Virus record (IMG/VR): IMGVR_UViG_3300012964_000024
Location: 1 to 39,683 of that record
Direction: 5' to 3' (one strand)
Source of the DNA: a virus
Length of the DNA: 39,683 bases
This document shows, in pieces, positions 4,454 through 24,288 of the stretch (positions are counted from its first letter, which is position 1; each line of letters starts with the position of its first letter). The translations under genes and the position numbers were made by a program. The notes under the pieces are model-generated. The model was not told the DNA's origin and ran no database searches. It worked only from the letters and a program-made list of their open reading frames with translations.

Positions 4454-4547
4454 AGTTATATATTTCTTTATTGTTATATATAATACTATATATTTATAAT
4501 ATATTATATAATTAATATATATTATATACAATATAGATTAAAATACA
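4454..4547 (-). other. AT-only leader between promoter-like element and first gene
   Basis: About 90 bases consist almost entirely of A and T (repeated TATATAAT-like runs), between the bipartite element and the ATG at 4453. It could be an untranslated leader with easy DNA melting. I see no gene. The leaders after the two rightward copies of the element are also extremely AT-rich. Confidence 0.5.
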
Positions 4548-4574
4548 TTAGACAATAGGTTATGTAAAAAGTTC
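4548..4574 (-). promoter_or_regulatory. Phage-specific promoter candidate, copy 3 (leftward)
   Basis: On the minus strand it reads GAACTTTTTA, 9 bases, TTGTCTAA, then TGTATTTT. The two blocks and the 9-base gap match the rightward copies at 16885-16911 and 16966-16992 exactly. It lies just after the stop of the 4577-4969 gene and ahead of the zinc-ribbon/primase genes. Confidence 0.65.
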
Positions 4575-4576
4575 AA

Positions 4577-4969
4577 TTAGTACCCTTCAATAGCGTCTGC
4601 AACTGATGCGTCCTTTCTGTATAATGACCATAAACCTACTTTATTTAAAGTCTTTGCATTTCTAAATACTTTTTCTTCCGTCCATTTCATTGACTTACAA
4701 AAGTCTGCCATGTCTCCATCTTGTGTATCAGCCATTAGCAGCACAGACCTACGCATGTTATATGGTCCTTTAATACTAATAATATATTTTTGAAATTCTT
4801 CATAAAGCTTTAATTTTTTACGTCTGTATTGCTTTTCTGTCAAATCAGAATTTAGTTCGTATAGATAGAAACTACAGGCAGAAATAATTCCTATTCCACA
4901 ACAATGTGGGTACAAACTTGCCGCCCCTGTTACCCATCCAGCTTTTCCCGTAAATGTAAAATTAGTCAT
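4577..4969 (-). CDS. Hypothetical protein, 130 residues
   Basis: It starts at an ATG at 4969 with a clear AGGAG ribosome site 6 bases upstream. The N-terminal part reads MTNFTFTGKAGWVTGAASLYPHCCG, a Gly/Cys-rich segment resembling a short beta region. The rest is helical and charged (EKQYRRKKLKLYEEFQKYI) and ends with SLYRKDASVADAIEGY. It follows the class II amidotransferase in the leftward cluster, separated by a TTAATC palindrome. A role with the amide-ligase cluster is possible but not shown. No family recognised. Confidence 0.65.
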   Translation of the reverse strand: MTNFTFTGKAGWVTGAASLYPHCCGIGIISACSFYLYELNSDLTEKQYRRKKLKLYEEFQKYIISIKGPYNMRRSVLLMADTQDGDMADFCKSMKWTEEKVFRNAKTLNKVGLWSLYRKDASVADAIEGY

Positions 4970-4982
4970 CTTATCTCCTATA

Positions 4983-4998
4983 GTTAATCTAGATTAAC
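4983..4998. promoter_or_regulatory. TTAATC palindrome, site 1
   Basis: This is a perfect 16-bp palindrome, GTTAATCTAGATTAAC. It overlaps the stop of the class II amidotransferase gene and lies 14 bases upstream of the ATG at 4969. It is identical to the site at 13040-13055. Confidence 0.7.
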
Positions 4999-6475
4999 TT
5001 GTTAAAGAATTACCATACTTACCTTTAAATCCTGTTTCGTAGTGACCATAACACGTATCACATAACGATCCACTATTAGTCACTTCTGGAGCAGTATTAT
5101 TTATTACTTCTCTTGCTGTTAATTCTTCATCGCACCATCCACATCTAGTCTCAGTAGTTTTATCATTTACAAGTAAAATAGTTGTAGGATCAACTAGTAT
5201 GTATGATCCTTTCCCTGTATAAGATGCTATAACTGTATTAACCGTACCTCTATATAAATCCTCCGTAGATAGTGATAATTCTTTCGGTAGATTAAATGAT
5301 CGTACTTCAATCATACTTTCATCATCTGTAATACCTGTCAATGATGTTGGCGCTCCCTCTGTTCCTCTACGGAATATTTGAAGGATTCTAAATTTGATAG
5401 TATCTCCTGTATGATAATAGTCAATTGCATTAGATTCTGGTCTATCGTCGGTAGCTAGTGCGTATGAGACCAGTGATGTAAGTTCTGCATCTTTATCTGC
5501 TGAATCAGACTCAGTAAATCTACTTTGTTGTGCTTTTAATTTATAGATATTCCCACCAACTAATTTTTGTTTAAGCTCTTCTGTGACAGGAACTACCCAG
5601 CAGTATAAATTATCCTTAACATGTCGAAATTTAGCACAAGGCATTTGCCTACTAGCGAACTGTGCAACTCCTACAAATTCTGCAAAAAACTCCTCGTCTT
5701 TGTCTACTTTGATGTATCTACTAGTGTACGAATTTCCTCCTATCACTGGATTGTTTGGGGGAACATGTGTGGGAGTAGTGAAGATGGTAAATGGCTTAAT
5801 TCGTTGTTTTTCTTTGCTATCCAGAGGAAACTTTAAATGAAATCCTGGTTTAACCATATTGATTTCTTTTAAGTCAATGTTATTTCGTTCAGCTAACCAT
5901 AATAACATACCATCTTCAGAGGCAAAGAATAAATTCTTAGACTTCTTTGTAGTTGCAATGTATAGAGGGCGTGAATCATTTCTAGCAGCATTTAAAGTTT
6001 GGTCATTAGCGTTATACCATAATAGTGCATATGATCCAGACAATAACTCTAGTGTTTCTTTCTCCCCTTTGGTTGCCATACATATAGCAATAGCAGTAGA
6101 ATCATGTGTATTGTAAGGAACTCCAAGAGAGTGAATTTGATTAATAACTCCATTGTGTGCAAGTGTAATATGTTCATGCACTACAGGATGTGATGTTTCA
6201 ATACTATTACCTCCATTGGTAGAAGCTCTATTATGAATGATTCCAAACACTGATTTATCATTTGCTCCAAGCATTGATTTAGTAGGAATTAACTGTGCTA
6301 AGTCCCATCCCGGTAATGGACGTTTATAAATAGATGTTTCTCCTTTCTCTCCAACTAAAAATAATCCAGACCCATCTGTTCCTCGTAGAGAATTTGCAAC
6401 AAGACTATTTCCAACAAAATTATTAATGTTAAGTTTGATAATATCTCGATTAATAAATCCTACAAGTCCACACAT
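4994..6475 (-). CDS. Class II glutamine amidotransferase with C-terminal zinc ribbon
   Basis: The protein has 493 residues. The N-terminal Ntn-type glutaminase domain has Cys2 as nucleophile (MCGLVGF) and LRGTDGSG at about 31-38. It also has HNRASTNG and LAHNGVINQ, which supplies the oxyanion-hole Asn-Gly, as in the GlmS/PurF glutaminase family. It should release ammonia from glutamine. The sugar-isomerase or PRTase half is absent. Instead, about 260 unrecognised residues follow, ending in a CGWC...CDTC zinc ribbon. It is the last gene of the amide-ligase cluster, with a TAATG overlap to the amidoligase upstream. The ammonia acceptor is unknown; a nucleotide or peptide carboxylate is plausible. 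Confidence 0.85.
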   Translation of the reverse strand: MCGLVGFINRDIIKLNINNFVGNSLVANSLRGTDGSGLFLVGEKGETSIYKRPLPGWDLAQLIPTKSMLGANDKSVFGIIHNRASTNGGNSIETSHPVVHEHITLAHNGVINQIHSLGVPYNTHDSTAIAICMATKGEKETLELLSGSYALLWYNANDQTLNAARNDSRPLYIATTKKSKNLFFASEDGMLLWLAERNNIDLKEINMVKPGFHLKFPLDSKEKQRIKPFTIFTTPTHVPPNNPVIGGNSYTSRYIKVDKDEEFFAEFVGVAQFASRQMPCAKFRHVKDNLYCWVVPVTEELKQKLVGGNIYKLKAQQSRFTESDSADKDAELTSLVSYALATDDRPESNAIDYYHTGDTIKFRILQIFRRGTEGAPTSLTGITDDESMIEVRSFNLPKELSLSTEDLYRGTVNTVIASYTGKGSYILVDPTTILLVNDKTTETRCGWCDEELTAREVINNTAPEVTNSGSLCDTCYGHYETGFKGKYGNSLTS

Positions 6476-7401
6476 TAGAATTCTCCACTGGTTGTTGAGA
6501 TACCTGCTTTAGGCAAATGTTTATTAATCGTAGTTAATATATCTTGCTCGCTACTTGAATTAATAAGTAATTTTGAAATTGAGTTTCGAGCAATCTGTTC
6601 ACATAATGTTAAATCAATGTCGGAATGTGTTAACGGAAAATAGGGCAAAATCTCAGACAAGATAACTGTATAAGGGCGAGTAAAAAAGAATTTATAAAAA
6701 TCAGCCTCAGAGTATTGTTTAACTGTTCTGAATAATGCTAAAACTACTTTTATCCATGAGTATAGAGTTTCAACATCATTAGTTCCATAATGATGCCTAA
6801 ATTCAATGCTTCCCTTTTCTCTTATACTTCGTACATTCATTGCCTCATACTTAGCACCACTACTAATTGAATTAATCACATCAGCTTCATTTATATTTTG
6901 CATAAAAAGGGAAGATAATCGCTTTATACCTGAGTTATTTTTATAATAAGGAATACAATAACTATTATTCTCTCTTCCATGACCAATGTAATTAAAGATA
7001 TATGGCTCTAAAGCCAAATAATACAGGATTAATGTACGCAATTGCAATAAATTTAAAAACCTAGTGTCACAATGAATATGTACTGACGTTCTTTCAGAAT
7101 AATCTGGATTAATATTATTATTTACAAAGACATTATTAAGTTCCTCTAATGCCGCTCTAATGTCTCCTCCTCGTAACATCACTGATACGAATTCAGTGCC
7201 ATAGTTTCTTAAACTTCCATCTGTGGTTACGTCCCAGTAGTTAAGTAAAATATTTAAATCCTCGTTAACTATCTGAATATTCTCAGCCTCGATTTCAATT
7301 CCCACGTATTTATCAGACATAGGAAGAGAATGATCTACCTGAAACTGTCTCGCATCTGGCCTGCGATTAAACAAATTACCTAACGGTTTATCTAATTTCA
7401 T
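6475..7401 (-). CDS. Amidoligase (Amidoligase_2 family)
   Basis: The protein has 308 residues with the family's glutamine-synthetase-fold signature: YVGIEIEAE (32-40), TTDGSLR (59-65), TEFVS (69-73), SVHIHCD (106-112), NNSYCIPYY (145-153) and GSIEFRHHYG (197-206). These enzymes are predicted to form amide bonds between a carboxylate and an amine using ATP. Its start overlaps the 435-residue gene by 14 bases and its stop overlaps the class II amidotransferase ATG, so all three are probably co-translated. The substrate is unknown. Family assignment is from motif recognition. Confidence 0.85.
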   Translation of the reverse strand: MKLDKPLGNLFNRRPDARQFQVDHSLPMSDKYVGIEIEAENIQIVNEDLNILLNYWDVTTDGSLRNYGTEFVSVMLRGGDIRAALEELNNVFVNNNINPDYSERTSVHIHCDTRFLNLLQLRTLILYYLALEPYIFNYIGHGRENNSYCIPYYKNNSGIKRLSSLFMQNINEADVINSISSGAKYEAMNVRSIREKGSIEFRHHYGTNDVETLYSWIKVVLALFRTVKQYSEADFYKFFFTRPYTVILSEILPYFPLTHSDIDLTLCEQIARNSISKLLINSSSEQDILTTINKHLPKAGISTTSGEF

Positions 7402-8695
7402 ACGGCACCATCTGAGACAACATATGTTTATGTGGACTAAAGGGTTGATAAACTTTTAAATATGATTCTGATTTATGTAATTCTCCTATACATTTGTCCA
7501 TGTATAATAGAAAATATTTATGAGTTTGTTTATGATTTCTTTTAACTAGGACAATCTCTGGAGTTAAAATGATAAATGAATCTTTATCCCCTAAACCTTG
7601 TTCTATAGTTTTATATTGACGTGTTAAGTAGTCTCGAACAATGTCCTGTGTAAACATTGATCGTGATAAATATTGCCCTTCAGTAGTTGAAAAGTCCAAC
7701 ATCATTCGGACATTATTCGGAGAGAGCGCTCGCAAATACGTACCTGGAACATACTCTGCATAAACAAGCCTGGCAGCAGTGCTAGTTATAACCCATCCTA
7801 ATGGAGAATTAAAAAATACATGCTTTTCTTCAGAATAGGGCTCTGTTATTGTTTTAGCAGATTTTCCCGGAATATATAACTCATACTGAATATGTACTCC
7901 ATTTATATCATTAATAAATCCTGTAACATAAAATATATGAGTATTTTTTATAACTCCATAACAGGAACGATATCTGATAGAAAGATTGTGTGCTACATCG
8001 TTCGCTGCGTGGGAACTAGGTCGTCTACGAAGATTATCAGTCTCTACAGAAAATGAATTAGTATTAGTTTCCTCATTTCTATTCAATCGAACCCTATATT
8101 GTGAACTAGGTACTACCTGAGAAGCTAACTCAATAGGTTCTGTGGAAATATACGTGCTGAAGTACTCGTTCACCAATCGGGCCATGATGGCCGCTAGAGC
8201 TTCTACTCTTATTCCAATAAGTGTATTACTTCCTCCATTATCTCTACTATAAACATTTGTATAATTAGAGATTACCCTATGTAATAAATATTTTTCTCCG
8301 TCTGCCAATAAGGGTGCTGTTAAAATTGAGATACTTATTTCATATTGATTTGATGCTGGAATATTTTGTTCTGATGTCAAACTATTATACATAGATAAGT
8401 ATTCCATGTATCCTGTTACTCCGATTACATCACCTAATGCCGCTCCACTAATCTGGATATTACACTCTATCATACATTGACGTATAGTACTATTTCTATC
8501 CCAATGAGCAAACTGGGACGGACTGGCATCTAGATAAGACCTACGTAATACCCAATATAAACAATCGAAGGGAATTGACTCGACGCCGCCCTCGACAGAT
8601 ATTTCTATAAGACGATTTCTGACATTAGGATCAGTAAATACATATTCCCATAAACGATTTGCTACTACAGTTTCATCAGGAGTAATAGGACGCAT
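7388..8695 (-). CDS. Unrecognised 435-residue protein of the amide-ligase cluster
   Basis: It starts at an ATG at 8695, two bases after the COOH-NH2 ligase stop, and overlaps the amidoligase by 14 bases, so it is embedded in the cluster. The N-terminal half is helical; the C-terminal half looks rich in beta strands (YGVIKNTHIFYVTGFIND, ILTPEIVLVKRNHKQTHKYF). No signal peptide or membrane segment is visible. I do not recognise a family. Its fixed position between two ligases suggests it is a scaffold, an acceptor substrate or a further enzyme of the pathway; this is inference from context only. Confidence 0.75.
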   Translation of the reverse strand: MRPITPDETVVANRLWEYVFTDPNVRNRLIEISVEGGVESIPFDCLYWVLRRSYLDASPSQFAHWDRNSTIRQCMIECNIQISGAALGDVIGVTGYMEYLSMYNSLTSEQNIPASNQYEISISILTAPLLADGEKYLLHRVISNYTNVYSRDNGGSNTLIGIRVEALAAIMARLVNEYFSTYISTEPIELASQVVPSSQYRVRLNRNEETNTNSFSVETDNLRRRPSSHAANDVAHNLSIRYRSCYGVIKNTHIFYVTGFINDINGVHIQYELYIPGKSAKTITEPYSEEKHVFFNSPLGWVITSTAARLVYAEYVPGTYLRALSPNNVRMMLDFSTTEGQYLSRSMFTQDIVRDYLTRQYKTIEQGLGDKDSFIILTPEIVLVKRNHKQTHKYFLLYMDKCIGELHKSESYLKVYQPFSPHKHMLSQMVPYEIR

Positions 8696-8697
8696 TT

Positions 8698-9492
8698 TTA
8701 ATACTCCAAAGCAGGATGTAGAGGAAATTCTAAACTCTTACGTAAAGTTTTTAAAAACTTAGATGCTTGGGATTTATTATTGCTATTTATAAGAGTAACA
8801 ATATCTTCTGTTATATAATATTTGTGCAAGTCTTTATAGTTAAGTGCAACAAACATGGCTGAATCAAACATCCATTTTCGTCCAGCAGCAGTGTGCGCCC
8901 AAAAGTTTGAAGGAGTACGCCATTCTACTCCATATGGTTTAAATCGCATTGCGCCTGCTTTACCGTATAAAATCTTTCTTCGGATATCCTTATCGACTAA
9001 GACAGATTGCGTTCCGATAAATGCATCCATACAACGAATTAACTCAAAGCCATCTTTAACCGATAGCTTTGGAATACCTACATGAACATGGCCTCCAGCC
9101 GATCTAAGTCGGGCCAGATTGCCCGTAGGCTTTGTAAATTTATTAACCATGTGTGTCCAAGCATTATAGTCTGGATCACATCCAAATTCTTTAGCTAACG
9201 GATGCCGCAATTCTTTTTCAGAAAACAACATAGATGCAGCAGTAGAAAGAGATAGAAAAGGAGGCAATCTATTTTTTAATTCTTGTACAACAGTTTGAAT
9301 ATTAGTTTCCCAGGCACTAGAATCTTGTGCTGGATAAATATTAATTTCTGCTAACACATTATCTTCCTGTAGTGCTCCTAGATGGCACGGACTGGGACTA
9401 GTCTTGCTCCCTCCTACAAAACCAATTGCAGATACAGGAACCTTGCCTTTAACTAAAATAAATTCAACATCATTACCGATTGTAATATGCAT
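8698..9492 (-). CDS. phiEco32-type COOH-NH2 ligase
   Basis: The protein has 264 residues with motifs of the phage COOH.NH2 ligase type 2 family: TIGNDVEFIL (4-13), EDNVLAEINIYPA (43-55), GCDPDYNAW, LRSAGGHVHVGI (129-140) and AMRFKPYGVEWRTPS (181-195). The Glu and His residues in these motifs match the metal/ATP site of the glutamine-synthetase-like fold. It should couple a carboxyl to an amino group with ATP hydrolysis. It is separated by only two bases from each neighbouring gene in the cluster. The substrate is unknown. Confidence 0.88.
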   Translation of the reverse strand: MHITIGNDVEFILVKGKVPVSAIGFVGGSKTSPSPCHLGALQEDNVLAEINIYPAQDSSAWETNIQTVVQELKNRLPPFLSLSTAASMLFSEKELRHPLAKEFGCDPDYNAWTHMVNKFTKPTGNLARLRSAGGHVHVGIPKLSVKDGFELIRCMDAFIGTQSVLVDKDIRRKILYGKAGAMRFKPYGVEWRTPSNFWAHTAAGRKWMFDSAMFVALNYKDLHKYYITEDIVTLINSNNKSQASKFLKTLRKSLEFPLHPALEY

Positions 9493-9494
9493 GA

Positions 9495-10421
9495 TTATTT
9501 CTCCAGTTTATAAATATGATTTACTACTTGTTGCAATTTATTATATATTTCATAAGATTTTTCTAGTTTTCTAAAAAGACGCTCTCCTTCTATATATATC
9601 GTCTTATATGGATATAGACTATATAGACCATCCAATACATTTTTGTAAGATTCTAAAGGCCGGAGTATGCCTGCCCTCTCTGCTGGTCGTGTGAGATTAT
9701 TGGGAAAATTCAGTACTACAGAGGCTACCTGATCATTGAGCCTTTTTACAGTGGTTATTAATCCCATTGGACTATGTATACCCAAAAAATAAGTATGCAG
9801 ATTACTAATGTCTGGAGTATACTTTATTCCCTTTGTATCGCTGGATAATCGTCCTGTTACATGGTCTTGGTAAAGAGTAAATTTACTTGAAGGATCAGTT
9901 ACATAACCGCTCTGTAAGCTAGCAGTTAATGACACATATTCTGGAGATGTTCTAACTGGATCATTTTCATCTATTTTTGAATATCCAGTAAATGTTTTTC
10001 TCATATCTTGTGTAAAGAGCCAAAATAAGGCAGGAACTTTATAATCATTCTTAGTAATCTTAAAAATCATTGTACTAATTGGACGAGAATCAAAGTCATC
10101 ATAATCTTTCACATCAGATTCATATTTTAATTCTTCATTTTCTATATGAAAAACATCAAACATCCAGTTCCATTTCTTTTTAAATGTATTAAAAACTACT
10201 TGAGTAATAGGTGAGGGCATTACTAAAGCGCATGTGATATAAGGTACATTTTCTGAAAATAAGTAATCATGTGCCTTAGTGAGAAAGTAGTCTCGACACG
10301 TGCCATAAAAAAAGTCAGTTTGAGTATATCCCAATTTATCCTCATTAACTATCATAAAATTATTTACGATATTCTCTTGATATACACCTCTTCCTTCAGA
10401 ACGTATCAATAGCCTTTTCAT
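9495..10421 (-). CDS. Unrecognised 308-residue protein of the amide-ligase cluster
   Basis: The ATG at 10421 has its AGGA ribosome site inside a TTAATC palindrome (10424-10439). The sequence includes NVPYITCALVMPSPITQVVF, aromatic-rich stretches (WNWMFDVFHI, ALFWLFTQDM) and NFPNNLTRPAERAGILRPLESY. The C-terminus is a coiled helix (RLFRKLEKSYEIYNKLQQVV). No known catalytic motif, signal peptide or membrane helix is evident. It lies between the ATP-grasp ligase and the COOH-NH2 ligase with 2-3 base spacers, so it probably works in the same pathway. Confidence 0.75.
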   Translation of the reverse strand: MKRLLIRSEGRGVYQENIVNNFMIVNEDKLGYTQTDFFYGTCRDYFLTKAHDYLFSENVPYITCALVMPSPITQVVFNTFKKKWNWMFDVFHIENEELKYESDVKDYDDFDSRPISTMIFKITKNDYKVPALFWLFTQDMRKTFTGYSKIDENDPVRTSPEYVSLTASLQSGYVTDPSSKFTLYQDHVTGRLSSDTKGIKYTPDISNLHTYFLGIHSPMGLITTVKRLNDQVASVVLNFPNNLTRPAERAGILRPLESYKNVLDGLYSLYPYKTIYIEGERLFRKLEKSYEIYNKLQQVVNHIYKLEK

Positions 10422-10423
10422 TA

Positions 10424-10439
10424 GTTAATCCTGATTAAG
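10424..10439. promoter_or_regulatory. TTAATC palindrome, site 2
   Basis: It reads GTTAATCCTGATTAAG, core TTAATC-CT-GATTAA. It covers the stop of the ATP-grasp gene and the Shine-Dalgarno AGGA of the gene starting at 10421, so a bound protein or an RNA hairpin here could affect translation as well as transcription. Confidence 0.55.
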
Positions 10440-11222
10440 TAAATTGATAATGGCGTTTGCATAGCTATTTATTGTTTGCCCTTCAAGCCCAGGAGCAGTA
10501 TTAATTTCAAGTGCGTAAGCTTTATTCCTCTTATCAACAATAATATCCACAGCCCCAAAATCAAGGCCCAAAACAGAGACAGCAGACATAGCAAGAGACA
10601 ATATAGTATTGTCAGGCGAACAGTTCTCGCGGGCAAAGATCCATCCATTATTATGGCTTCTAATCCGTTTATTAATTGTTTTCGACTGCATTGCTTCCCT
10701 ACTCTTTCTTTTGCGTTGTGCATCTATCACCTTCCCACGAAATACATGAATACGATACTCTACTATCTTTGGAATGTATTGTACATATAGTTTGATAGGA
10801 TCATCCGCCCATTCCATATTTTCAATATCAAATAAGTCTTGAAAATAATAACATCCTTCGCCACTATGTCCCTTTAATTTTGTCCGTGCCATTACCGGAA
10901 CATTCCAAGATTTTGCGGTTTCTATATCAGTGGTCCATTTTGGAATGTCCCTAAATCTTGCGTGATTAAATTTTCTGAAAGTTTCTAGTTTATCTACCGC
11001 TGTTTTCACAGAAGTTGGAAGATTAACACAATTAGTAAAGTCCCACTCTGGAAGATTACTGTTACCCCAATTGATGATTAAATCAGACCATCGAGGTTTA
11101 TAATTTCCGTCGGGATAAACACGCAAAACTTTTCCTTCAAATTGTTTCTGTATTTCTTTTTGTAAAAGAGTCACAGAGGCAGAAGCAATATTGTAAGGAT
11201 AAAAAATAATTCTTTTATACAT
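10425..11222 (-). CDS. ATP-grasp ligase, RimK-like
   Basis: The protein has 265 residues. The C-terminal two thirds match ATP-grasp enzymes: VMARTKLKGHSGEG (110-123, nucleotide-binding loop), KLYVQYIPKIVEYRIHVFRG (144-163), NNGWIF, and the metal-binding VDIIVDKRNKAYALEINTAPGL (225-246). RimK-type enzymes join amino acids to carboxyl groups through an acylphosphate. The N-terminal segment (FYPYNIASAS...LIINWGN) resembles the pre-ATP-grasp domain. The start overlaps the class I amidotransferase by 8 bases. With the two COOH-NH2 ligases it gives this phage three peptide/amide-bond-forming enzymes. Confidence 0.87.
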   Translation of the reverse strand: MYKRIIFYPYNIASASVTLLQKEIQKQFEGKVLRVYPDGNYKPRWSDLIINWGNSNLPEWDFTNCVNLPTSVKTAVDKLETFRKFNHARFRDIPKWTTDIETAKSWNVPVMARTKLKGHSGEGCYYFQDLFDIENMEWADDPIKLYVQYIPKIVEYRIHVFRGKVIDAQRKRKSREAMQSKTINKRIRSHNNGWIFARENCSPDNTILSLAMSAVSVLGLDFGAVDIIVDKRNKAYALEINTAPGLEGQTINSYANAIINLLNQD

Positions 11223-11862
11223 GAATATACTCCTTTATAGCGTAATCAACAAAATCTAACGCTAAACGAAATCTCTTTTCACTAAAATTCATCATCTCTG
11301 GATGCCACTGAACTCCCAAACTATTGATTTTAGGAAAAAAAATAGCCTCTGGTTCTATGACAGTATTTGTTTGCTTAAAAGCAATATTTTCTGCGTATGC
11401 TAGAACTTTTTGTTCTTTTGTAGGAATACACATTTGATGGTGCAGACTATTTACCGGGAAAACAGTATATTTCCATGTGTCGTTAGCAACGACTTTGACT
11501 AGATGGCCGCCTACATGATTATTGACATGGGGAATAAGTGTACCACCAGTGAGTGCAGTAAGAAGCTGCATACCTCTGCAAATACCAAACATGGGAACTT
11601 TATGTTCTACAGCCCATAAAAACCATGATTTTTCCCATTCATCTCGTAGAGAACTACACTGTATGTATGAATAAGTTTCCCCATACATAGAGGGACATAA
11701 GTCCTGTCCTCCAGTAAACAACAAAAGACCAGGAACGGGATAAGTAGAGTTTGGTAAGTCATTAATTCCCAAACCAACTACTCGCTGAAAATTCTTTCCA
11801 AAAGTGCGGTGGAGAAGAAAATTAGCAGTGTGTTTATTTCCTAGAACGTACACCGTCTTCAT
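11215..11862 (-). CDS. Class I glutamine amidotransferase / C26-type hydrolase
   Basis: The protein has 215 residues. It shows the class I glutaminase triad: Cys95 in FGICRGMQLL, and His187 with Glu189 in LGVQWHPEM. FTGGQDLCPSMYGE (49-62) and NSLHHQ are typical of the gamma-glutamyl-GABA hydrolase (PuuD-like) branch. It may hydrolyse gamma-glutamyl amides or supply ammonia from glutamine to the linked ligases. It is the first gene of the compact amide-ligase cluster, with an ATG at 11862 and its stop overlapping the ATP-grasp gene. Confidence 0.87.
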   Translation of the reverse strand: MKTVYVLGNKHTANFLLHRTFGKNFQRVVGLGINDLPNSTYPVPGLLLFTGGQDLCPSMYGETYSYIQCSSLRDEWEKSWFLWAVEHKVPMFGICRGMQLLTALTGGTLIPHVNNHVGGHLVKVVANDTWKYTVFPVNSLHHQMCIPTKEQKVLAYAENIAFKQTNTVIEPEAIFFPKINSLGVQWHPEMMNFSEKRFRLALDFVDYAIKEYIHV

Positions 11863-11925: not shown

Positions 11926-12010
11926 TGGTGCTCAAGGTCGGACTCGAACCGACACGCTAAAAAGCAACAGATTTTAAGTCTGTCATGTCTACCAATTCCA
12001 TCACAAGAGC
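11926..12010 (-). tRNA. tRNA-Leu(UAA)
   Basis: An 85-nt class II tRNA with encoded CCA. The minus strand starts GCTCTTGTGATGG. The anticodon stem ACAGA/TCTGT encloses the loop CTTAAAA, giving anticodon UAA. There is a 13-nt long variable arm, and the T arm is GTCGG-TTCGAGT-CCGAC. It aligns along its length with E. coli tRNA-Leu(UAA). Two U-U mismatches occur in the acceptor stem (positions 5-68 and 6-67). It would read UUA, a codon favoured by AT-rich phage genes. It lies within the leftward transcription unit between the amide-ligase cluster and small genes. Confidence 0.93.
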
Positions 12011-13039: not shown

Positions 13040-13055
13040 GTTAATCTAGATTAAC
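13040..13055. promoter_or_regulatory. TTAATC palindrome, site 3
   Basis: Perfect 16-bp GTTAATCTAGATTAAC, identical to site 1. On the minus strand it lies 13 bases downstream of a TATAAC hexamer (13069-13074) and 22 bases upstream of the ATG at 13017. That is where a repressor would block early elongation. Confidence 0.7.
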
Positions 13056-13095: not shown

Positions 13096-13722
13096 TTAGA
13101 ATGATACCTTAGTTTCAAACACATAAGCATCACTAGAAACAAATGGCAATCCGTCTTTATGGGAATCAATTTTAAAATAGCTTATTCCAAAGTCCAAATT
13201 GCCCACTCTATACCCAAGACCCAACATAGGTCTAACCTCAAGCTGAGTAGAATGTGTTTCTGTTCCTAGATAATTTCCGTCTATATCGGAAAATTCCACT
13301 TTCCACATTTGTTTATATACAAACAGTCCTACTTTTCCGTAAAGACTGCCAATAGGCAAGTAAGACTCTTTAGAAACAGAAAACAATCCTCCTGTAATAT
13401 TTCCATTTCCAATCAGTCTGTACAGATGCGATCCGTTGTGAGGATACCCATTATAGGTCGCATCAGCCTCAGCTACGCAAATTGTGTGTGCTTGTCCCAA
13501 AGAAACAAATTCTGCTTCATATCTTAGGTCATGCCTTTTAAAACTTACTCCCACACTAAGTGTACTAGCTTGTAAATCAAGAGAATAGGGGTATCCTTTT
13601 TGATAGTATATCCCATTTTGTGGCTTGGAGTAGTTTGTAATGCCTGTACCTATATCAAAATCAAGGGCTAGAGCATTATAACTGCAAAACAACAAGAAAA
13701 CTGCAAGCATTAGATTACGCAT
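13096..13722 (-). CDS. Phage-encoded outer-membrane beta-barrel protein
   Basis: The protein has 208 residues from an ATG at 13722 (GAGGAGG upstream). A signal peptide, MRNLMLAVFLLFCSYNALA, is followed by amphipathic strands alternating with short turns (FDIGTGITNY, LSVGVSFKRHDLRYEAEF, YGKVGLFVYKQMWKVEF, RPMLGLGYRVGNLDFGISYF). The last strand ends VFETKVSF. A C-terminal Phe with alternating hydrophobics is the signal recognised by the BAM machinery. It should fold into the host outer membrane as a barrel of about 8 strands, as Lom-type or OmpW-like proteins do. Possible roles are superinfection exclusion or surface remodelling; those are inferences. Confidence 0.78.
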   Translation of the reverse strand: MRNLMLAVFLLFCSYNALALDFDIGTGITNYSKPQNGIYYQKGYPYSLDLQASTLSVGVSFKRHDLRYEAEFVSLGQAHTICVAEADATYNGYPHNGSHLYRLIGNGNITGGLFSVSKESYLPIGSLYGKVGLFVYKQMWKVEFSDIDGNYLGTETHSTQLEVRPMLGLGYRVGNLDFGISYFKIDSHKDGLPFVSSDAYVFETKVSF

Positions 13723-13740
13723 AATTCCTCCTCAGCTTGC

Positions 13741-14106
13741 AATAGCACACATTCAGAGTATAACTCACTAGCTTCTGCTAGTTTGCCGGTATCGTCTAGG
13801 CATTTAAGACCCAGCCCAATACATTAAATGTGGCTGTCACTCCCCGGCGCGGCCTTAGCATCCCCTCGCTACTGTGCTACTGCACAAGATTCAGAAGCCA
13901 TTTTATCTAGCTTCCTTAATTACCTGTTTTAACAGGGTTCGGGGTTCCAGTCACTTTTTCAAGCTCTGGTTAGATATGTAGCAGGTCTAAGATAACTATC
14001 GAAACATTATCTATAACTTTTTCGGAACATTGCGTCCTAGCCGCTATATCTTTTTGCGTATGCCGTGGTTATTTCGTAAATACTCGGTATTTTGTCCCTG
14101 CAAAAA
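13741..14106 (-). ncRNA. Structured non-coding block with hairpin array
   Basis: About 370 bases lack a credible gene. They contain five consecutive perfect hairpins: CTAGC/GCTAG (13768-13781), CAGCC/GGCTG with nested ACAT/ATGT (13812-13836), TGTGC/GCACA (13873-13886), GAAGC/GCTTC (13894-13914) and CCTGTT/AACAGG (13923-13936). A GCAGG/CCTGC pair closes 13981-14101. The block is visibly less AT-rich than nearby genes. A TTGACT-N17-TATAGT promoter upstream would transcribe it leftward, as a separate RNA or as the leader of the outer-membrane protein gene. No known RNA family recognised. Confidence 0.45.
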
Positions 14107-14122
14107 CTTAATCTAGATTAAC
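14107..14122. promoter_or_regulatory. TTAATC palindrome, site 4
   Basis: It reads CTTAATCTAGATTAAC; the 14-bp core is identical to sites 1 and 3. On the minus strand it is followed by GTTTTT, so in RNA it could also act as a weak hairpin-plus-U-run terminator. Confidence 0.65.
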
Positions 14123-14191
14123 TAAATTAAATCTTTGGACAGACTGCGCCCCGCGACCGCTCACCACAACCGGAGTCCGGCGCATATAAAT

Positions 14192-14220
14192 ACTATAACA
14201 TATATATCCCCTGAAGTCAA
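14192..14220 (-). promoter_or_regulatory. Sigma70-type promoter
   Basis: On the minus strand: TTGACT, 17-base spacer, TATAGT. It is placed directly after the stop of the 35-residue gene. Transcription would start near 14185, run through a GCGCC/GGCGC stem (14146-14183) and palindrome 4, then into the structured block and the outer-membrane protein gene. Confidence 0.7.
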
Positions 14221-14232
14221 GGGACATAGATT

Positions 14233-14340
14233 TTATAGTGATCTATTAGTAATAGCTTTTACAATCCACACCGTGCCCACTAAAACAAATGCTAGCCATG
14301 TTGCAAAATCTATACATAAGTTTATCGTATGTTGATCCAT
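14233..14340 (-). CDS. Tiny membrane protein, 35 residues
   Basis: The product is MDQHTINLCIDFATWLAFVL followed by VGTVWIVKAITNRSL, one hydrophobic helix of about 20 residues. The ATG at 14340 lies inside the 3' end of the preceding gene, a 19-base overlap, so translation is probably coupled; its own ribosome site is weak. No family recognised. Confidence 0.48.
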   Translation of the reverse strand: MDQHTINLCIDFATWLAFVLVGTVWIVKAITNRSL

Positions 14341-14432
14341 TCGGTTACCCAATCAATAATTTTGCCAATAAGAAAAATACCCCCACAAATTACAAATGTG
14401 TAGGCTAAATTCAAAAAATCATTATGTGACAT
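14322..14432 (-). CDS. Tiny membrane protein, 36 residues
   Basis: The ATG at 14432 follows a strong GAGGAGG ribosome site. The product begins MSHNDFLNLAYTFVICGGIF and ends KIIDWVTEWINIR: one transmembrane helix and an amphipathic tail. It is the middle member of a run of small leftward genes. Function unknown. Confidence 0.6.
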   Translation of the reverse strand: MSHNDFLNLAYTFVICGGIFLIGKIIDWVTEWINIR

Positions 14433-14441
14433 ATTTCCTCC

Positions 14442-14633
14442 TCATAGATTATATAGTGTGGTCATCTTAACGTTTCCACAGTCCATCAAATGCTCATTAT
14501 TCCACTCAACAGCCATGACCCATTCTAGAAAACATGGAGATACAATTGCGTCATTTCCTTTGGAATCTTTACCAAAGACAATGTAAAAAATTGGTGCTTT
14601 CTCATCATCATAGAACGGCACTTTGATTCCCAT
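14442..14633 (-). CDS. Hypothetical protein, 63 residues
   Basis: The ATG at 14633 follows AGGAG with an 8-base spacer. The product begins MGIKVPFYDDEKAPIFYIVF and continues GKDSKGNDAIVSPCFLEWVM. It is soluble-looking and probably a small mixed alpha/beta fold. It sits 9 bases ahead of the next tiny gene in the same unit. No family recognised. Confidence 0.6.
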   Translation of the reverse strand: MGIKVPFYDDEKAPIFYIVFGKDSKGNDAIVSPCFLEWVMAVEWNNEHLMDCGNVKMTTLYNL

Positions 14634-14792
14634 AAAATTCTCCTGTTAAGGCGATTCGGGACTGGCTGGCCGGATAGCTAATCCGTTTAACCCATTACTT
14701 TGCCCAAGTAACGTATTTGCAGGCACCACGAGCCAGTCCTTCCTCGACAAGCCAGTTTTAGGAACGGAGCCGAAACCCTTGCTTGCGAGACT
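14634..14792 (-). ncRNA. Structured leader with two alternative pairings
   Basis: This gene-free block has ACTGGCT (14661-14667), which can pair with either of two AGCCAGT copies (14731-14737 within a 9-bp match, and 14750-14756). An internal hairpin TTACTT/AAGTAA lies at 14695-14711. It precedes the ribosome site of the 63-residue gene. The mutually exclusive pairings resemble an attenuator or riboswitch expression platform, but no known family is recognised. A weak TTAATC-like site lies at 14678-14690. Confidence 0.35.
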
Positions 14793-14972
14793 TTAATGCT
14801 TTGTATCAGTGATCGTTAGAGCTTCGATCAATTCCACTTTGATCCCCTGATTTCTCCAGTACAGAATCTCAGTTTCTACCTGAGTCCTGTCCGAATCATC
14901 ATAGTACACCATAGTCGGCTTAGGCATTGATGGCCCAGCATACACTTTAAGGACGAATACAGGCATAAGCAT
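14793..14972 (-). CDS. Hypothetical protein, 59 residues
   Basis: The ATG at 14972 follows an AGGAGG ribosome site 4 bases upstream. The product has MLMPVFVLKVYAGPSMPKPT, then YYDDSDRTQVETEILYWRNQ and GIKVELIEAL. It looks like a small soluble alpha/beta protein. It is the first gene downstream of the hammerhead ribozyme, so its mRNA would be cut 5' of it, about 200 bases upstream of the start codon. No family recognised. Confidence 0.62.
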   Translation of the reverse strand: MLMPVFVLKVYAGPSMPKPTMVYYDDSDRTQVETEILYWRNQGIKVELIEALTITDTKH

Positions 14973-14991
14973 ATATCCTCCTGATGATACA

Positions 14992-15006
14992 TTAAACTAC
15001 GTTTAA
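14992..15006. promoter_or_regulatory. Second palindrome type TTAAAC-TAC-GTTTAA
   Basis: A perfect dyad with 6-base arms around 3 bases, 20 bases upstream of the ATG at 14972, next to a degenerate TTAATC-type site at 15012-15025. Possible operator or RNA hairpin. Confidence 0.35.
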
Positions 15007-15055
15007 CACATCTAATCTAAATTAAGTGTCGGTTACGCACTTCCGACGAGCTTTA

Positions 15056-15082
15056 TTTATAGCCTCTCGACCAAGCTATAAA
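15056..15082 (-). other. 8-bp stem-loop in the ribozyme downstream fragment
   Basis: Inverted repeat TTTATAGC/GCTATAAA with an 11-base loop. A second stem GTCGG/CCGAC lies just downstream on the minus strand. Together they make the stretch between the hammerhead and the next gene highly structured. Confidence 0.45.
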
Positions 15083-15168
15083 ATCGTGGGCATACACCTA
15101 TCGGGTCGCCGCTCGCTAAGTGTCTCCATGTGCCGTGTCGAGTGCTAGCACAAGTTAATGCCCTGCTC

Positions 15169-15227
15169 CGCGTTTACGCCAGGAATATTCCCCTAGCGTT
15201 TCGGCCCTATGGCCTCATCAGAACGCG
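15169..15227 (-). ncRNA. Type I hammerhead self-cleaving ribozyme
   Basis: Minus-strand RNA in order: stem I CGCGUU; invariant CUGAUGA (15215-15221); stem II GGCC-AUAG-GGCC; invariant GAAA (15199-15202); stem III CGCUAGG with loop GGAAUAUU and CCUGGCG (one U-G pair); then U-A and stem I AACGCG. The A of GAAA pairs with the U before the cleavage base, as required. Predicted cleavage follows the A complementary to 15175. All invariant core bases are present. The open stem is stem I, making it type I. It starts 6 bases after the stop of the 58-residue gene and would split the leftward transcript between two small genes. Confidence 0.93.
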
Positions 15228-15232
15228 ACTTC

Positions 15233-15409
15233 TTAAGGAATTACTATCACCGCATACAGAAAGGCAATAATAACCCCGATAGCGATTGTTGATCCTACTG
15301 TGACAATCGCAATGTCAAGAAAGATTTCAAACAATGATTGGTCCGGCGTAGTATCCGCCACAGTCTGCCTCGCGGCCTCTACAGTCTTGTGTAGCTGTTT
15401 GATTCTCAT
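15233..15409 (-). CDS. Small membrane protein, 58 residues
   Basis: The ATG at 15409 follows a GGAGG ribosome site. The product starts MRIKQLHKTVEAARQTVADT (soluble helix) and continues with a long hydrophobic helix (IAIVTVGSTIAIGVIIAFLY), giving an N-in or N-out single-pass protein. A TTAATC palindrome lies 20 bases upstream, and the hammerhead follows the stop. Unknown function; probably an early membrane protein. Confidence 0.62.
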   Translation of the reverse strand: MRIKQLHKTVEAARQTVADTTPDQSLFEIFLDIAIVTVGSTIAIGVIIAFLYAVIVIP

Positions 15410-15428
15410 TTTCCCTCCACAGATAAAA

Positions 15429-15443
15429 GTTAATCGGATTAAC
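15429..15443. promoter_or_regulatory. TTAATC palindrome, site 5
   Basis: GTTAATCGGATTAAC, arms separated by one base. It lies 20 bases upstream of the ATG at 15409. A TTGACA hexamer (15493-15498) and weak -10-like sequences (around 15459-15475) lie further upstream. Confidence 0.65.
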
Positions 15444-15538
15444 TATTTCCTTACTTCTAGTATGACAATAGCTTAACACATAACAATAACTATGTCAAGT
15501 CATGTCTACTTTTAATAACCCTATAATCTAAGGCTCTT

Positions 15539-15565
15539 AAAAGTATCCCCTCTTACGAGGGGATA
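15539..15565 (-). terminator. Rho-independent terminator (leftward)
   Basis: A perfect 9-bp stem, TATCCCCTC/GAGGGGATA, with a 4-base loop (15544-15565), followed on the minus strand by ACTTTTAA. It lies 22 bases after the stop of the 208-residue gene and should end that unit. Confidence 0.75.
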
Positions 15566-15587
15566 AGGGCAGGTAATCTTAGCTAAC

Positions 15588-16214
15588 TTACTGACTTACT
15601 GCACGAATCTGCGCGGCTTCCAGAGCTTCCGCATCGGTCATGCTTTCATTGTCCGACACATCGACTTTCGGCTCATACTTTGAAATGATCTCTTCCTGTA
15701 CTTCGGTAGGAAGCTTCGCAACCCGATCTAGCAGATCATTAAATAATACTTCCGTGACAGACTTGGCGCGCTGTATCTCCACATCAACACCATTCTCCCC
15801 TCCCTCGCCCTGCTCCATTGACTTCTTGGGGCTTTTGCGGGCCTTGACTGCCTGAGTCTTAAGCTCTTTGTACTGACTGTAGGACTCAGAATCATTTGGG
15901 ATAAGCCCAAAATCCTCCCATCCACGCAGAATCACAGATTTAGCATTGCTCCAAGCACCTGGCAAACGAACATAAGCTTGCCGTTCCTTCTTGGCCATGC
16001 CGGCATTCGCTGCCTTTTCCGTAAGGCGGGTCTTGCGAGCACTTTCTGCAGCAGCGCATCCGGACTCAAACTGATCAGCACTTGTGCATCCCTGAGCCAG
16101 AATAAAGAGATGTTGCGCTACTGATTCCTGTTTACCGCTGATTACCTTCTGTGCATTGTCCGCCTCAGCGAGCACGGAGTTAAAGGTAATTTCCTGCTTC
16201 TTTTCCTGTGTCAT
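15588..16214 (-). CDS. Hypothetical early protein, 208 residues
   Basis: It starts at an ATG at 16214. The protein is helical and charged: VLAEADNAQKVISGKQES, AESARKTRLTEKAANAGMAK, KERQAYVRLPGAWSNAKSVI, then a basic linker (KARKSPKKS) and an acidic C-terminus. It is alone between a good sigma70-type promoter (16321-16349) and a terminator, so it is probably expressed early and strongly. A TTAATC site lies in its leader. Less AT-rich than the neighbouring small genes. No domain recognised. Confidence 0.72.
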   Translation of the reverse strand: MTQEKKQEITFNSVLAEADNAQKVISGKQESVAQHLFILAQGCTSADQFESGCAAAESARKTRLTEKAANAGMAKKERQAYVRLPGAWSNAKSVILRGWEDFGLIPNDSESYSQYKELKTQAVKARKSPKKSMEQGEGGENGVDVEIQRAKSVTEVLFNDLLDRVAKLPTEVQEEIISKYEPKVDVSDNESMTDAEALEAAQIRAVSQ

Positions 16215-16240
16215 GGTTAAACCCTCGTAATTGACAGACT

Positions 16241-16267
16241 AGCTCAGTATGAGCTAATCCGATTAAG
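16241..16267. promoter_or_regulatory. TTAATC palindrome, site 6, with adjoining hairpin
   Basis: CTAATCCGATTAAG (16254-16267) adjoins the inverted repeat AGCTCA/TGAGCT (16241-16255). Both lie in the leader between the promoter at 16321-16349 and the ATG at 16214. Confidence 0.55.
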
Positions 16268-16320
16268 TGGATTTAGCCAATCAACCTGCCCAAATTGTAA
16301 AAGAACGTATTACAGGGATT

Positions 16321-16349
16321 ACTATAAACCTAATCTTTATCTGTGTCAA
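16321..16349 (-). promoter_or_regulatory. Consensus sigma70 promoter
   Basis: Minus strand TTGACA, 17-base spacer, TATAGT. It overlaps the last codons of the 31-residue gene. It should drive the 208-residue gene and would be read by host RNA polymerase. Confidence 0.8.
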
Positions 16350-16425
16350 GCATTGATGCAATCACCCTAACAACAATCGCCAAGATGATTACAATCAACA
16401 TCAGAGCACGAAAAAGGTAATTCAT
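16330..16425 (-). CDS. Tiny membrane protein, 31 residues
   Basis: The product is MNYLFRALMLIVIILAIVVR followed by VIASMLDTDKD, almost entirely one transmembrane helix with a short charged tail. The ATG at 16425 follows AAGGTG. A promoter for the next gene is embedded in its 3' end. Function unknown. Confidence 0.58.
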   Translation of the reverse strand: MNYLFRALMLIVIILAIVVRVIASMLDTDKD

Positions 16426-16478
16426 AGTATCACCTTGAGTACATTGTTTCACAGTGTTTGCATTGTGTCACGCGTAAT

Positions 16479-16492
16479 CTAATCCGATTAAG
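16479..16492. promoter_or_regulatory. TTAATC palindrome, site 7
   Basis: CTAATCCGATTAAG, identical to the core of site 6. On the minus strand it lies about 10 bases downstream of an extended -10 (TGG-TATAAA, 16502-16510). Confidence 0.6.
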
Positions 16493-16501
16493 CTAAATGT
16501 T

Positions 16502-16510
16502 TTTATACCA
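16502..16510 (-). promoter_or_regulatory. Extended -10 promoter element
   Basis: Minus strand TGG-TATAAA without a convincing -35. It would transcribe through site 7 toward the 31-residue gene. Confidence 0.4.
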
Positions 16511-16554
16511 GGATTAATAAGATTAATGATATAGTGCTTCTCACGCGCGCGCGT

Positions 16555-16583
16555 ATTATAAGGAATAGCAATTAGTGTGCCAG
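16555..16583 (-). promoter_or_regulatory. Sigma70-like promoter
   Basis: Minus strand CTGGCA, 17-base spacer, perfect TATAAT. It lies upstream of the extended -10 at 16502-16510 and would drive the same leftward unit. Confidence 0.5.
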
Positions 16584-16807
16584 GTAGTGTGATCTGATTA
16601 GACTAATATAGTGTGACCGACTTTAAATCATCCTATCCCACTATAAATAATTCTTATAGAAAATCTTAGCCACCCCCCGAGGGGAAATTTAGGAATGTCA
16701 TATTGATTAGTACCTTACATTCGACGGTTATATAAATTTCTAAGGTCCAAAAAGGGCTAAAATTAGAAAACTCGTGGCAAACTTTACCCAAAACTATTAC
16801 CTAAATA

Positions 16808-16823
16808 CTTAATCTAGATTAAC
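16808..16823. promoter_or_regulatory. TTAATC palindrome, site 8
   Basis: CTTAATCTAGATTAAC, the same 16 bases as site 4. On the minus strand it begins 4 bases downstream of the extended -10 at 16828-16836, so it would cover the transcription start. Confidence 0.68.
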
Positions 16824-16827
16824 TTTT

Positions 16828-16836
16828 ACTATACCA
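16828..16836 (-). promoter_or_regulatory. Extended -10 promoter element
   Basis: Minus strand TGG-TATAGT. No good -35 at the usual distance; a TTGACA occurs only 8 bases upstream. It is the rightmost leftward promoter candidate. Confidence 0.5.
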
Positions 16837-16884
16837 AACCTTGTCAAGCCCCCTAAATGAAATAAATATTTTTACTTTCATAGG

Positions 16885-16911
16885 GAACTTTTTATGATTC
16901 TTGTTGTCTAA
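16885..16911 (+). promoter_or_regulatory. Phage-specific promoter candidate, copy 1 (rightward)
   Basis: GAACTTTTTA, 9 bases, TTGTCTAA, then GTA. It is 81 bases upstream of copy 2, in front of the late operon. Confidence 0.65.
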
Positions 16912-16965
16912 GTACTAGTAAGATTACGATTTACAACATCTCTAAAATATATTTTTTATTTTGCG

Positions 16966-16992
16966 GAACTTTTCCTGTTTTTAGTTGTCTAA
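16966..16992 (+). promoter_or_regulatory. Phage-specific promoter candidate, copy 2 (rightward)
   Basis: GAACTTTTCC, 9 bases, TTGTCTAA, then GTATAT. It is followed by an AT-rich leader of about 125 bases to the protease ATG. Confidence 0.65.
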
Positions 16993-17019
16993 GTATATTT
17001 TAAATATAATTATTACTTA

Positions 17020-17035
17020 GTTTCCTAAAGGAAAC
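17020..17035 (+). other. Leader hairpin GTTTCC-TAAA-GGAAAC
   Basis: A perfect 6-bp stem with a TAAA loop, about 30 bases after copy 2. The 12-base core TTCCTAAAGGAA recurs at 24755-24766 just before a structural gene start, where it contains the ribosome site. Confidence 0.45.
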
Positions 17036-17119
17036 AATATAAATAGATAAATAATAATTATAAATAAAACTATAATATACTTATAAAATCTTTTTTTCTT
17101 CTGAGGTATATTCTTTTTT

Positions 17120-17830
17120 ATGCGAAAGATATTATTCTTGGTTGGTTTACTCGCCCTATTGGGCGGAACTATTCTGTATAAATTAGATTATACCTCTGCT
17201 CCTGTTATGCAGGAGCGTAATCTTATGAGCACTGTATATGTGCTCAATGTAGTCTCTCCGTCTGCACAGGGAGAAATGCAGCCGGTATCTCATGGTTCTG
17301 GAGTTGTTGTGCAACTCCGTAATGGTCACGTCTATCTCGTGACCGCTTATCATGTAGTTGATGATCTTAAGGATCATCCAGAGTATGTACTGCTGATCTC
17401 TCGATCAGCGTTTGAAGTTAAAGGAGATCGTGCAACTATAGTGGTTGTTGATCCTCTGCACGATCTTGCTATTGTTGAAGTCCAATCTTTGCCTGCCGCT
17501 AAGGCGGCGTATATTTGCACATTGACACCAGAGGTCTTTGACCGGGTGGTGGCAATAGGGTCTCCTGGACCCTTGCACGTTTCTCCTGCGGAGGGCATCA
17601 TCTCTGATACTGATGCCCTTTTTCCCACGTTACTGAATAATATGAACTTTCCAATGATTCAGCATACAGCCACTATCAGTGGCGGAGATTCAGGTGGTGG
17701 TCTATTTAAGTATGAAAATGGTGGATGGTGTTTGCAGGGAATCAATACTCAAGCCATTGGGGACCATCCATCTATCAATTTCGCTGTAGGGGTGCAATAT
17801 CTGCTACCCCTGTTACACAGCATCAAGTAA
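17120..17830 (+). CDS. HtrA/trypsin-like serine protease, membrane-anchored
   Basis: The protein has 236 residues. An N-terminal hydrophobic anchor or signal (residues 3-20) is followed by an S1-type fold with the full triad: His78 (VTAYHVVDD), Asp115 (DPLHDLAIVE) and Ser191 (SGGDSGGGLF). The sequence is closest in style to HtrA/DegP proteases without a PDZ domain. It is the first gene of the late operon. The start at 17120 has a distant ribosome site. An internal ATG at 17225 (Met36) has AGGAG at a good distance and would give a soluble form starting right at the protease domain. Possible roles are capsid or scaffold maturation, or cleavage of host envelope proteins. Confidence 0.83.
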   Translation: MRKILFLVGLLALLGGTILYKLDYTSAPVMQERNLMSTVYVLNVVSPSAQGEMQPVSHGSGVVVQLRNGHVYLVTAYHVVDDLKDHPEYVLLISRSAFEVKGDRATIVVVDPLHDLAIVEVQSLPAAKAAYICTLTPEVFDRVVAIGSPGPLHVSPAEGIISDTDALFPTLLNNMNFPMIQHTATISGGDSGGGLFKYENGGWCLQGINTQAIGDHPSINFAVGVQYLLPLLHSIK

Positions 17831-23103: not shown

Positions 23104-23432
23104 TGAAAGTTCAACCAGCGGGATACCGTGTATTGGTTAAACCAGATGCAGTTGAAGAGAAGAGTAAGGGCGGAATTATTATTGCAGATGCTAATACTAA
23201 GCGTAAAGAGCAGTCTGCACAGGTAATAGGAACGGTCCTTGCTATTGGAGCCGATTGTTGGGATAAGTTCTCATCGGCATGGGCAAAGGTAGGAGATAGA
23301 GTTCTATATCAACGATACTCTGGTATGTATATTCCGGACGGGAATGGTGGGTTTCGTACTGATATGCTCTTGTTGCAGGACTTAGATATCACAGCAGTAG
23401 TGACTGAGGAAGATAACAATGCCAGTAATTAA
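23103..23432 (+). CDS. GroES-like co-chaperonin
   Basis: The protein has 109 residues. It starts VQPAGYRVLVKPDAVEEKSK, has GGIIIADANTKRKEQSAQVI at the mobile-loop position, then GTVLAIGADCWD and AKVGDRVLYQRYSG, all standard Cpn10 landmarks. It probably replaces host GroES on GroEL to fold the capsid protein, as T4 gp31 does. Its place between portal and scaffold/capsid genes supports that. It is about 10 residues longer than bacterial GroES, with an acidic tail. Confidence 0.9.
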   Translation: MKVQPAGYRVLVKPDAVEEKSKGGIIIADANTKRKEQSAQVIGTVLAIGADCWDKFSSAWAKVGDRVLYQRYSGMYIPDGNGGFRTDMLLLQDLDITAVVTEEDNNASN

Positions 23433-24288
23433 ACTTACTGAAGAGCCTGAAACTAAGGCTACTGAAGTAGAGGAAAAAGAAAATAATGAAGATTCCCAAA
23501 GCGAAACACATGATGAAAGCTTTGAAGAAACAGAGGAGTCTGTCGCTAGATCGAAGGGCTGGGTTCCCAAGGAAGAATACAAAGGCAACAAGGAAGAGTG
23601 GATTGATGCGAAGGAATTTGTCGCACGAGGTCCGCTCTATGATGCCATCCACCAAGCCAACCGTAAAATCAAGAAGCTCACTGAGACCGTGGAATCCTTT
23701 AAAGAACACTATTCCAAAGTAGAGAATACTGCTAAGCAGAAAGCTATTGAACAGCTTCGTGCAGAACTAAAAGCAGCTTCGGAAGATCGTGATATTGAAC
23801 GTGCTTTGGAAGTAAAGGATAAGATTACTGAATTAACACAAGAAGTAAAAACAGAAGCAAAAGAATCTGACAATGTTGTAGCTCCTGAATTTGAAACTTG
23901 GGTAGAAAAAAATCAGTGGTATGAAACTGATAAAGTTCTTAGACATGCTGCTAATGGTATTGGCTTTGAACTTCAAAAAGAACATCCTGATTGGTCTCCT
24001 AAGAAAATTTATACAGAAGTTGAGAGTCAGATAAAAGAAGCTTTTCCTCAGAAGTTTAATCAGGAACCAGAACGAAAAATGACTACCTCAGTTACTACTA
24101 GTACTAAGCGTACTACTCCTACTAAGAAAGGCAGTAAGACTCCTTCTGCTAAACAGTTACCAGATGATGCTAAAGTAAATTATCGTCGTCTTGTTAAATC
24201 AGATCGTAACCCTAGCGGGCTTTTAACCCATGAGCAGTTTATGAAAGACTATCTTGCCACAGGTGGCACCTTAATCGAGGAAGAATAA
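23419..24288 (+). CDS. Probable scaffolding protein
   Basis: The protein has 289 residues. It has a very acidic, probably disordered N-terminus (EEPETKATEVEEKENNEDSQ). SKGWVPKEEYKGNKEEWIDA and a coiled-coil centre follow (KIKKLTETVESFKEHYSKVE, RAELKAASEDRDIERALEVK). The C-terminus is basic with a Thr/Lys-rich linker (TTSTKRTTPTKKGSKTPSAK). Position just before the capsid genes, the coiled coil and the basic tail fit a prohead scaffold. The upstream serine protease could degrade it; that is speculative. Confidence 0.75.
   Translation: MPVIKLTEEPETKATEVEEKENNEDSQSETHDESFEETEESVARSKGWVPKEEYKGNKEEWIDAKEFVARGPLYDAIHQANRKIKKLTETVESFKEHYSKVENTAKQKAIEQLRAELKAASEDRDIERALEVKDKITELTQEVKTEAKESDNVVAPEFETWVEKNQWYETDKVLRHAANGIGFELQKEHPDWSPKKIYTEVESQIKEAFPQKFNQEPERKMTTSVTTSTKRTTPTKKGSKTPSAKQLPDDAKVNYRRLVKSDRNPSGLLTHEQFMKDYLATGGTLIEEE

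Follow-up and report, generated by a model that had tools for sequence, protein, structure and literature searches.

The window analysed here is an entire viral contig of 39,683 bases, in which terminase, portal and capsid genes run on the plus strand from ~18 kb and a leftward arm lies on the minus strand. A type I hammerhead ribozyme (15169–15227, minus strand), identified by a covariance model match (R1), by its minimum free energy (MFE) fold and by direct reading, occupies a noncoding gap and is codirectional with both flanking open reading frames (ORFs). The preliminary description had placed it just after a stop codon on the transcribed strand between two small phage genes, and this position is borne out: the upstream ORF of 58 aa (15233–15409, minus strand), whose C-terminal half is hydrophobic, ends in a TAA (15235–15233) 5 nt ahead of stem I, with the stop at −14 relative to the catalytic core. 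The UGAUGA of the core lies in frame with this ORF and forms a second stop. On the other side, an ORF of 57 aa (14793–14966, minus strand; 59 aa if the ATG at 14972 is used) lies behind an AGGAGG, and the RNA that carries it would begin after cleavage with a 208-nt leader (14967–15174, minus strand) that is not unusually structured. A structured leader downstream of the ribozyme was not supported by comparison with shuffled sequences, as 14965–15174 folds no better than its shuffles (z −0.77).

Inspection by eye suggests a possible promoter of the 58-aa ORF at 15468–15499 on the minus strand (TTGACA, 17 nt, then TAAGCT, with TG one base before), a candidate absent from the list returned by a consensus promoter scan. 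Further upstream, the hairpin TATCCCCTC-GTAA-GAGGGGATA followed by CTTTTAAG (15540–15576, minus strand) may be the terminator of the preceding 208-aa gene; the interval 15505–15574 around it has a fold z of about −4.6, and a terminator scan did not call the hairpin. No protein relatives were found for the flanking ORFs of 58, 57 and 208 aa (none in phages for the 58-aa and 57-aa products, and none in PHROGs for the 58-aa product), and known RNA families other than the hammerhead gave chance matches only in 13600–17200. The preliminary description had called the flanking genes early, which the leftward arm and the promoter-like sites make plausible.

Other features of the leftward arm can be recorded here. 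Long noncoding stretches lie among its small genes at 13730–14240, 14640–14790 and 14967–15174, and the intervals 14185–14254 and 14080–14149 fold much better than their shuffles, partly owing to palindromes. One palindrome, TTAATCNNGATTAA, is dispersed through the arm in five perfect copies, four of them TTAATCTAGATTAA (4984–4997, 10425–10438, 13041–13054, 14108–14121 and 16809–16822), and sites with at most two mismatches number 14 against 4.6 expected; the copies resemble a series of operators or stoperators. Sites of a related sequence, TTAATCGGATTAG, are found near 14676, 15430, 16252 and 16477. A leftward cluster at 4994–11862 encodes a class II glutamine amidotransferase, an Amidoligase_2, a COOH-NH2 ligase (phiEco32-like), a RimK-like ATP-grasp protein and a Peptidase_C26/GATase, which by these predicted products is a phage peptide-ligase cassette. 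A tRNA-Leu (UAA) gene is located at 11926–12010 on the minus strand, 3 kb from the ribozyme.

Sequence and fold of the ribozyme

Read along the minus strand from 15227 to 15169, the ribozyme RNA is CGCGUU-CUGAUGA-GGCC-AUAG-GGCC-GAA-ACGCUAGG-GGAAUAUU-CCUGGCGU-A, followed beyond the cut by AACGCG. Stem I comprises 6 bp between CGCGUU (15227–15222) and AACGCG (15174–15169), to which an outer U·G pair could be added; stem II comprises the 4 bp of GGCC-AUAG-GGCC and is followed by GAA; and stem III comprises 8 bp between ACGCUAGG and CCUGGCGU, one U·G included, and could be lengthened by two G·U pairs. Both parts of the core consensus, CUGANGA and GAAA, are present on the minus strand as CUGAUGA (15221–15215) and GAAA. 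The cleavage triplet GUA (15177–15175) conforms to the NUH rule, and an A–U pair between the U of GUA and the last A of GAAA closes stem III. From the position of this triplet in the fold, cleavage is predicted after the A of GUA, between 15175 and 15174 on the minus strand, such that the 5′ product would end opposite 15175 and the 3′ product would begin opposite 15174. Direct reading thus returns the helix lengths of 6, 4 and 8 bp, the single U–G wobble, the GUA triplet and the cut position that had been given beforehand. GUA is a minority triplet, found in 14 of the 126 viral type I hammerheads among the matches listed.

The hammerhead is also the MFE fold of the local RNA (−27.5 kcal/mol, z −3.3, equalled by 0 of 200 shuffles), with three helices arranged around the core and stem I open-ended; the MFE and centroid folds both give helices of 7, 4 and 9 bp. 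The pairing probability of stem I is 0.89 locally and 0.44–0.73 in most longer contexts, and falls to 0.04 once 200 nt of flank are added on each side, where a strong competitor fold arises while stems II and III still stand at 0.99. The local value and those for transcripts terminating close to the ribozyme span 0.72–0.89, and these are the values relevant to folding during transcription. The competition for stem I in long contexts is nonetheless a weakness for any functional account. No tertiary contact between loop I and loop II, of the kind associated with fast cleavage, could be assigned by inspection; loop II is AUAG, and neither an internal loop nor an outer helix could be made out in stem I.

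Statistical support and behaviour in Rfam

The window holds one instance of the core pattern CTGATGA-N6-25-CGAAAC, for which 0.01 would be expected, and a loose three-stem search gave 1 match in the window versus 22 in 1000 simulated windows, with the stems of the window copy far longer than that search required. An independent covariance model, built by aligning 56 viral type I hammerheads taken from contigs other than the window, matches exactly 15169–15227 on the minus strand (37.7 bits, E 8.4e-11; next best in the window, 0.6). The sequence, the MFE fold and this match agree with the preliminary description of a complete type I hammerhead with all core bases and three helices. A covariance model search of the whole contig for a second hammerhead gave no other match above chance; 1906–1969 on the minus strand (10.2 bits) and 23432–23469 on the plus strand (9.8 bits) were rejected as further hammerheads on their chance-level scores.

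A covariance model match above threshold, which the preliminary description had set as a check, was not obtained with the Rfam models. RF00008 (Hammerhead_3) matches the core together with stem II at 26.3 bits (E 0.0024 locally), under its gathering score of 48.5, and RF00163 (Hammerhead_1, gathering score 34) gave no match. The same models yielded no hammerhead match above cut-off in nine viral or prophage loci holding ~22 hammerheads, and because they miss these controls as well, the sub-threshold result for the window is uninformative. Rfam cut-offs for hammerheads overlook phage copies, which annotation pipelines will therefore fail to report. A chance resemblance to a hammerhead could be read from the Rfam scores, yet it is extremely improbable given the E-value from the independent model, the intergenic placement near a stop on the coding strand, and the behaviour of the same cut-offs on control phage hammerheads. 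The element is almost certainly a genuine type I hammerhead and would very probably cleave itself under cell-like conditions.

Relatives and distribution

No DNA similarity in phage records was found to the region or to the ribozyme alone, and the exact 24-base sequence of core and stem II had no match in IMG/VR. The best relative, contig L121, shares 68% terminase identity with the window and is syntenic with it; no hammerhead lies at the syntenic place in the piece read. Ten records of terminase relatives, searched whole, gave no covariance model match, and 80 fragments with capsid relatives gave none above chance, many of these pieces stopping short of the corresponding region. Among the relatives checked, the hammerhead is sporadic within the phage group of the window. 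No homologous copy of the hammerhead, in which compensatory changes might be read at this locus, was found.

The L121 contig has features of its own at 4230–5480 and 5370–6740: some 1.2 kb with little coding potential amid its leftward genes, repeated CACTTTCGATTATA motifs, which are promoter-like, and repeated palindromes TACTTTAAAGTA, an operator-like set that differs from that of the window.

Placement relative to stop codons

A pattern scan of IMG/VR covered at least 120 contigs, in which a script found at least 128 type I and at least 50 type III complete hammerheads; the placement comparison as a whole draws on viral loci L001–L120 and L213–L257 and genome loci L258–L279. Up to six hammerheads lie in one piece among the IMG/VR matches listed. 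Just one type I copy is seen in the pieces examined for 51 of 76 viral loci, again among the matches listed, so that several copies per genome, although common, are not required of a phage hammerhead; the contig of the window likewise has only one.

For each distinct copy that had the end of an ORF of at least 70 aa close by, the position of that stop was taken relative to the first core base. In these samples, which are pattern-selected, hold several copies per contig and rely on mechanical ORFs, so that exact percentages are unreliable, a stop falls within −16 to +1 of the core in 67 of 86 type I copies versus 1 of 38 type III copies and 15% of random noncoding points among the matches listed (type I versus type III, Fisher p 2e-16). 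Counted per contig among the matches listed, stop-proximal placement is seen in 41/63 for type I versus 1/33 for type III. The corresponding fractions are 15/28 and 1/5 in a second viral set, and 8/9 and 0/3 in bacterial genome contigs. It is the contrast between type I and type III placement that forms the robust part of these statistics. When ORFs down to 50 aa are admitted, the UGA of the core itself serves as the stop in 20 of 106 type I cases among the matches listed.

The stop at −14 in the window agrees with the type I pattern. Viral type I hammerheads often have a Shine–Dalgarno sequence and start codon within 16–46 nt downstream among the matches listed, and the start codon lies 208 nt downstream in the window versus a median of ~31 nt in other phages among those matches; the site is not the typical tight gene junction. 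The placement rule, with type I on the stop and type III not, was not found stated in the papers searched, and no papers linking hammerhead ribozymes, phage genomes, stop codons and intergenic regions were found in a search that left most subscription journals and bioRxiv outside its reach.

Discussion

As the explanation of the locus as a whole, we consider it probable that a cis-cutting type I hammerhead serves as RNA punctuation after the 58-aa gene. Hammerhead cleavage leaves a 2′,3′-cyclic phosphate and a 5′-OH, from which we infer the chemistry of the ends in the window. The hammerhead would act in cis on the leftward phage transcript, cut it 58 nt past the stop of the 58-aa gene, endow the upstream mRNA with a fixed 3′ end consisting of two stable hairpins and a 2′,3′-cyclic phosphate, and part it from a downstream RNA with a 5′-OH and the 208-nt leader before the 57-aa gene. 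Because the cut of a type I hammerhead is at its 3′ edge, with both hairpins 5′ of it, the body of the ribozyme would remain on the upstream mRNA. The preliminary description had envisaged a 3′ end just past the stop for the upstream mRNA and a defined, structured 5′ end for the downstream one. The upstream 3′ end would lie 58 nt past the stop; the structured 5′ end does not stand, as the hairpins would stay upstream and AACGCG would open the downstream RNA, with a 5′-OH and a leader z of −0.77. Processing of mRNA is a sensible reading of the ribozyme, and cleavage in the cell may in turn affect mRNA stability or stoichiometry. Whether the making of the upstream 3′ end close to the stop is the role itself we regard as an even call.

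The proximity of the stop would also suit a ribozyme gated by translation. With the stop codon directly against stem I, any ribosome that terminates on the 58-aa ORF would cover the 5′ strand of that stem and block its folding; the RNA would be cut only when ribosomes are sparse, and cleavage would therefore report translation. General footprint sizes suggest that a ribosome terminating at −14 from the core would reach about the inner end of stem I. Among the matches listed, phage type I hammerheads either gather at the stop or supply it through the UGA of their core, and type III hammerheads, with a more distant 5′ strand, are not gathered there. Compactness of phage genomes alone could press a ribozyme against a stop, although the type III copies in the same collection are not so placed. 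We find gating of this kind doubtful; if true, it would make 3′-end formation in a small phage mRNA dependent on whether that mRNA is being translated. The broader proposal that phage type I hammerheads, that of the window included, form a functional class set by stop-codon position, with ribosome-gated folding, while type III lies beyond the reach of the ribosome and is ungated, is speculative to the same degree.

The main job might also lie downstream, where cleavage would free the RNA of the 57-aa gene with a 5′-OH that resists 5′-monophosphate-dependent decay, and so raise or time its expression. Here, however, the start is 208 nt away behind a leader that is not unusually structured, and the ribozyme sits tighter to the upstream stop, which makes such a role unlikely even though viral type I hammerheads often have a Shine–Dalgarno sequence and start shortly after them among the matches listed and an ardA gene lies just downstream of published ones (PMC3088659). 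A decayed or neutral hammerhead, sporadically transferred and now without function, would be in keeping with the lack of a hammerhead in terminase relatives, the syntenic L121 among them, with flanking genes that have no relatives and with a ribozyme that has no homolog. We nevertheless deem it distinctly unlikely, given that the core bases and all helices are intact, a state that drift would not preserve for long. Punctuation of the RNA after the 58-aa gene is the reading we prefer.

Hammerheads of phages and of prophage gene junctions have been in print since 2010–2011 (PMC3088659; review PMC6155905), as the preliminary description had stated for some phage and bacterial genomes. Perreault et al. 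2011 reported hammerhead clusters in prophages (PMC3088659), and multi-hammerhead transcripts of phages and prophages cleave in vitro, one set also in E. coli cells (PMC3088659). The 2017 review treats the role of these hammerheads, which flank small, non-conserved ORFs, as an open question (PMC6155905). A single extra copy adds little, but the placement rule makes that question testable by reporter assays or end mapping.

Nearest to the window by letters are the hammerheads of viral contig L004 and Acidovorax contig L265, identical in 23 of the 24 bases of core and stem II. These two differ from it in sharing a conserved RNA of ~155 nt with an outer stem and, in L265, in lying upstream of tRNA genes, and the window has neither. 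In L004 (3739–3762) and L265 (7205–7249) the hammerhead is nested in the outer stem of the ~155-nt RNA, and two tRNA genes follow in L265. In L071, L051, L060, L107 and L017, type I hammerheads also precede phage tRNA genes or arrays by 37–400 nt, with both on one strand. A general link between phage hammerheads and tRNA genes was rejected, as a tRNA follows within 1.5 kb in only 9 of 252, and the tRNA gene of the window is 3 kb off.

In its strand order the window's ribozyme is type I and not type III, which sets it apart from RF00008 (Hammerhead_3). Compared with the published type I hammerheads of phages and prophages (PMC3088659, PMC6155905), it is a single copy rather than part of a cluster, carries GUA in place of GUC, stands 208 nt from the next start and shows no obvious stem I extension or loop–loop contact. 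It shares with them the core, the type I topology and the proposed part in mRNA processing, as well as its setting in a tailed phage genome, amid small genes without known function and on their coding strand, and is a further example of the phage type I hammerheads already known.
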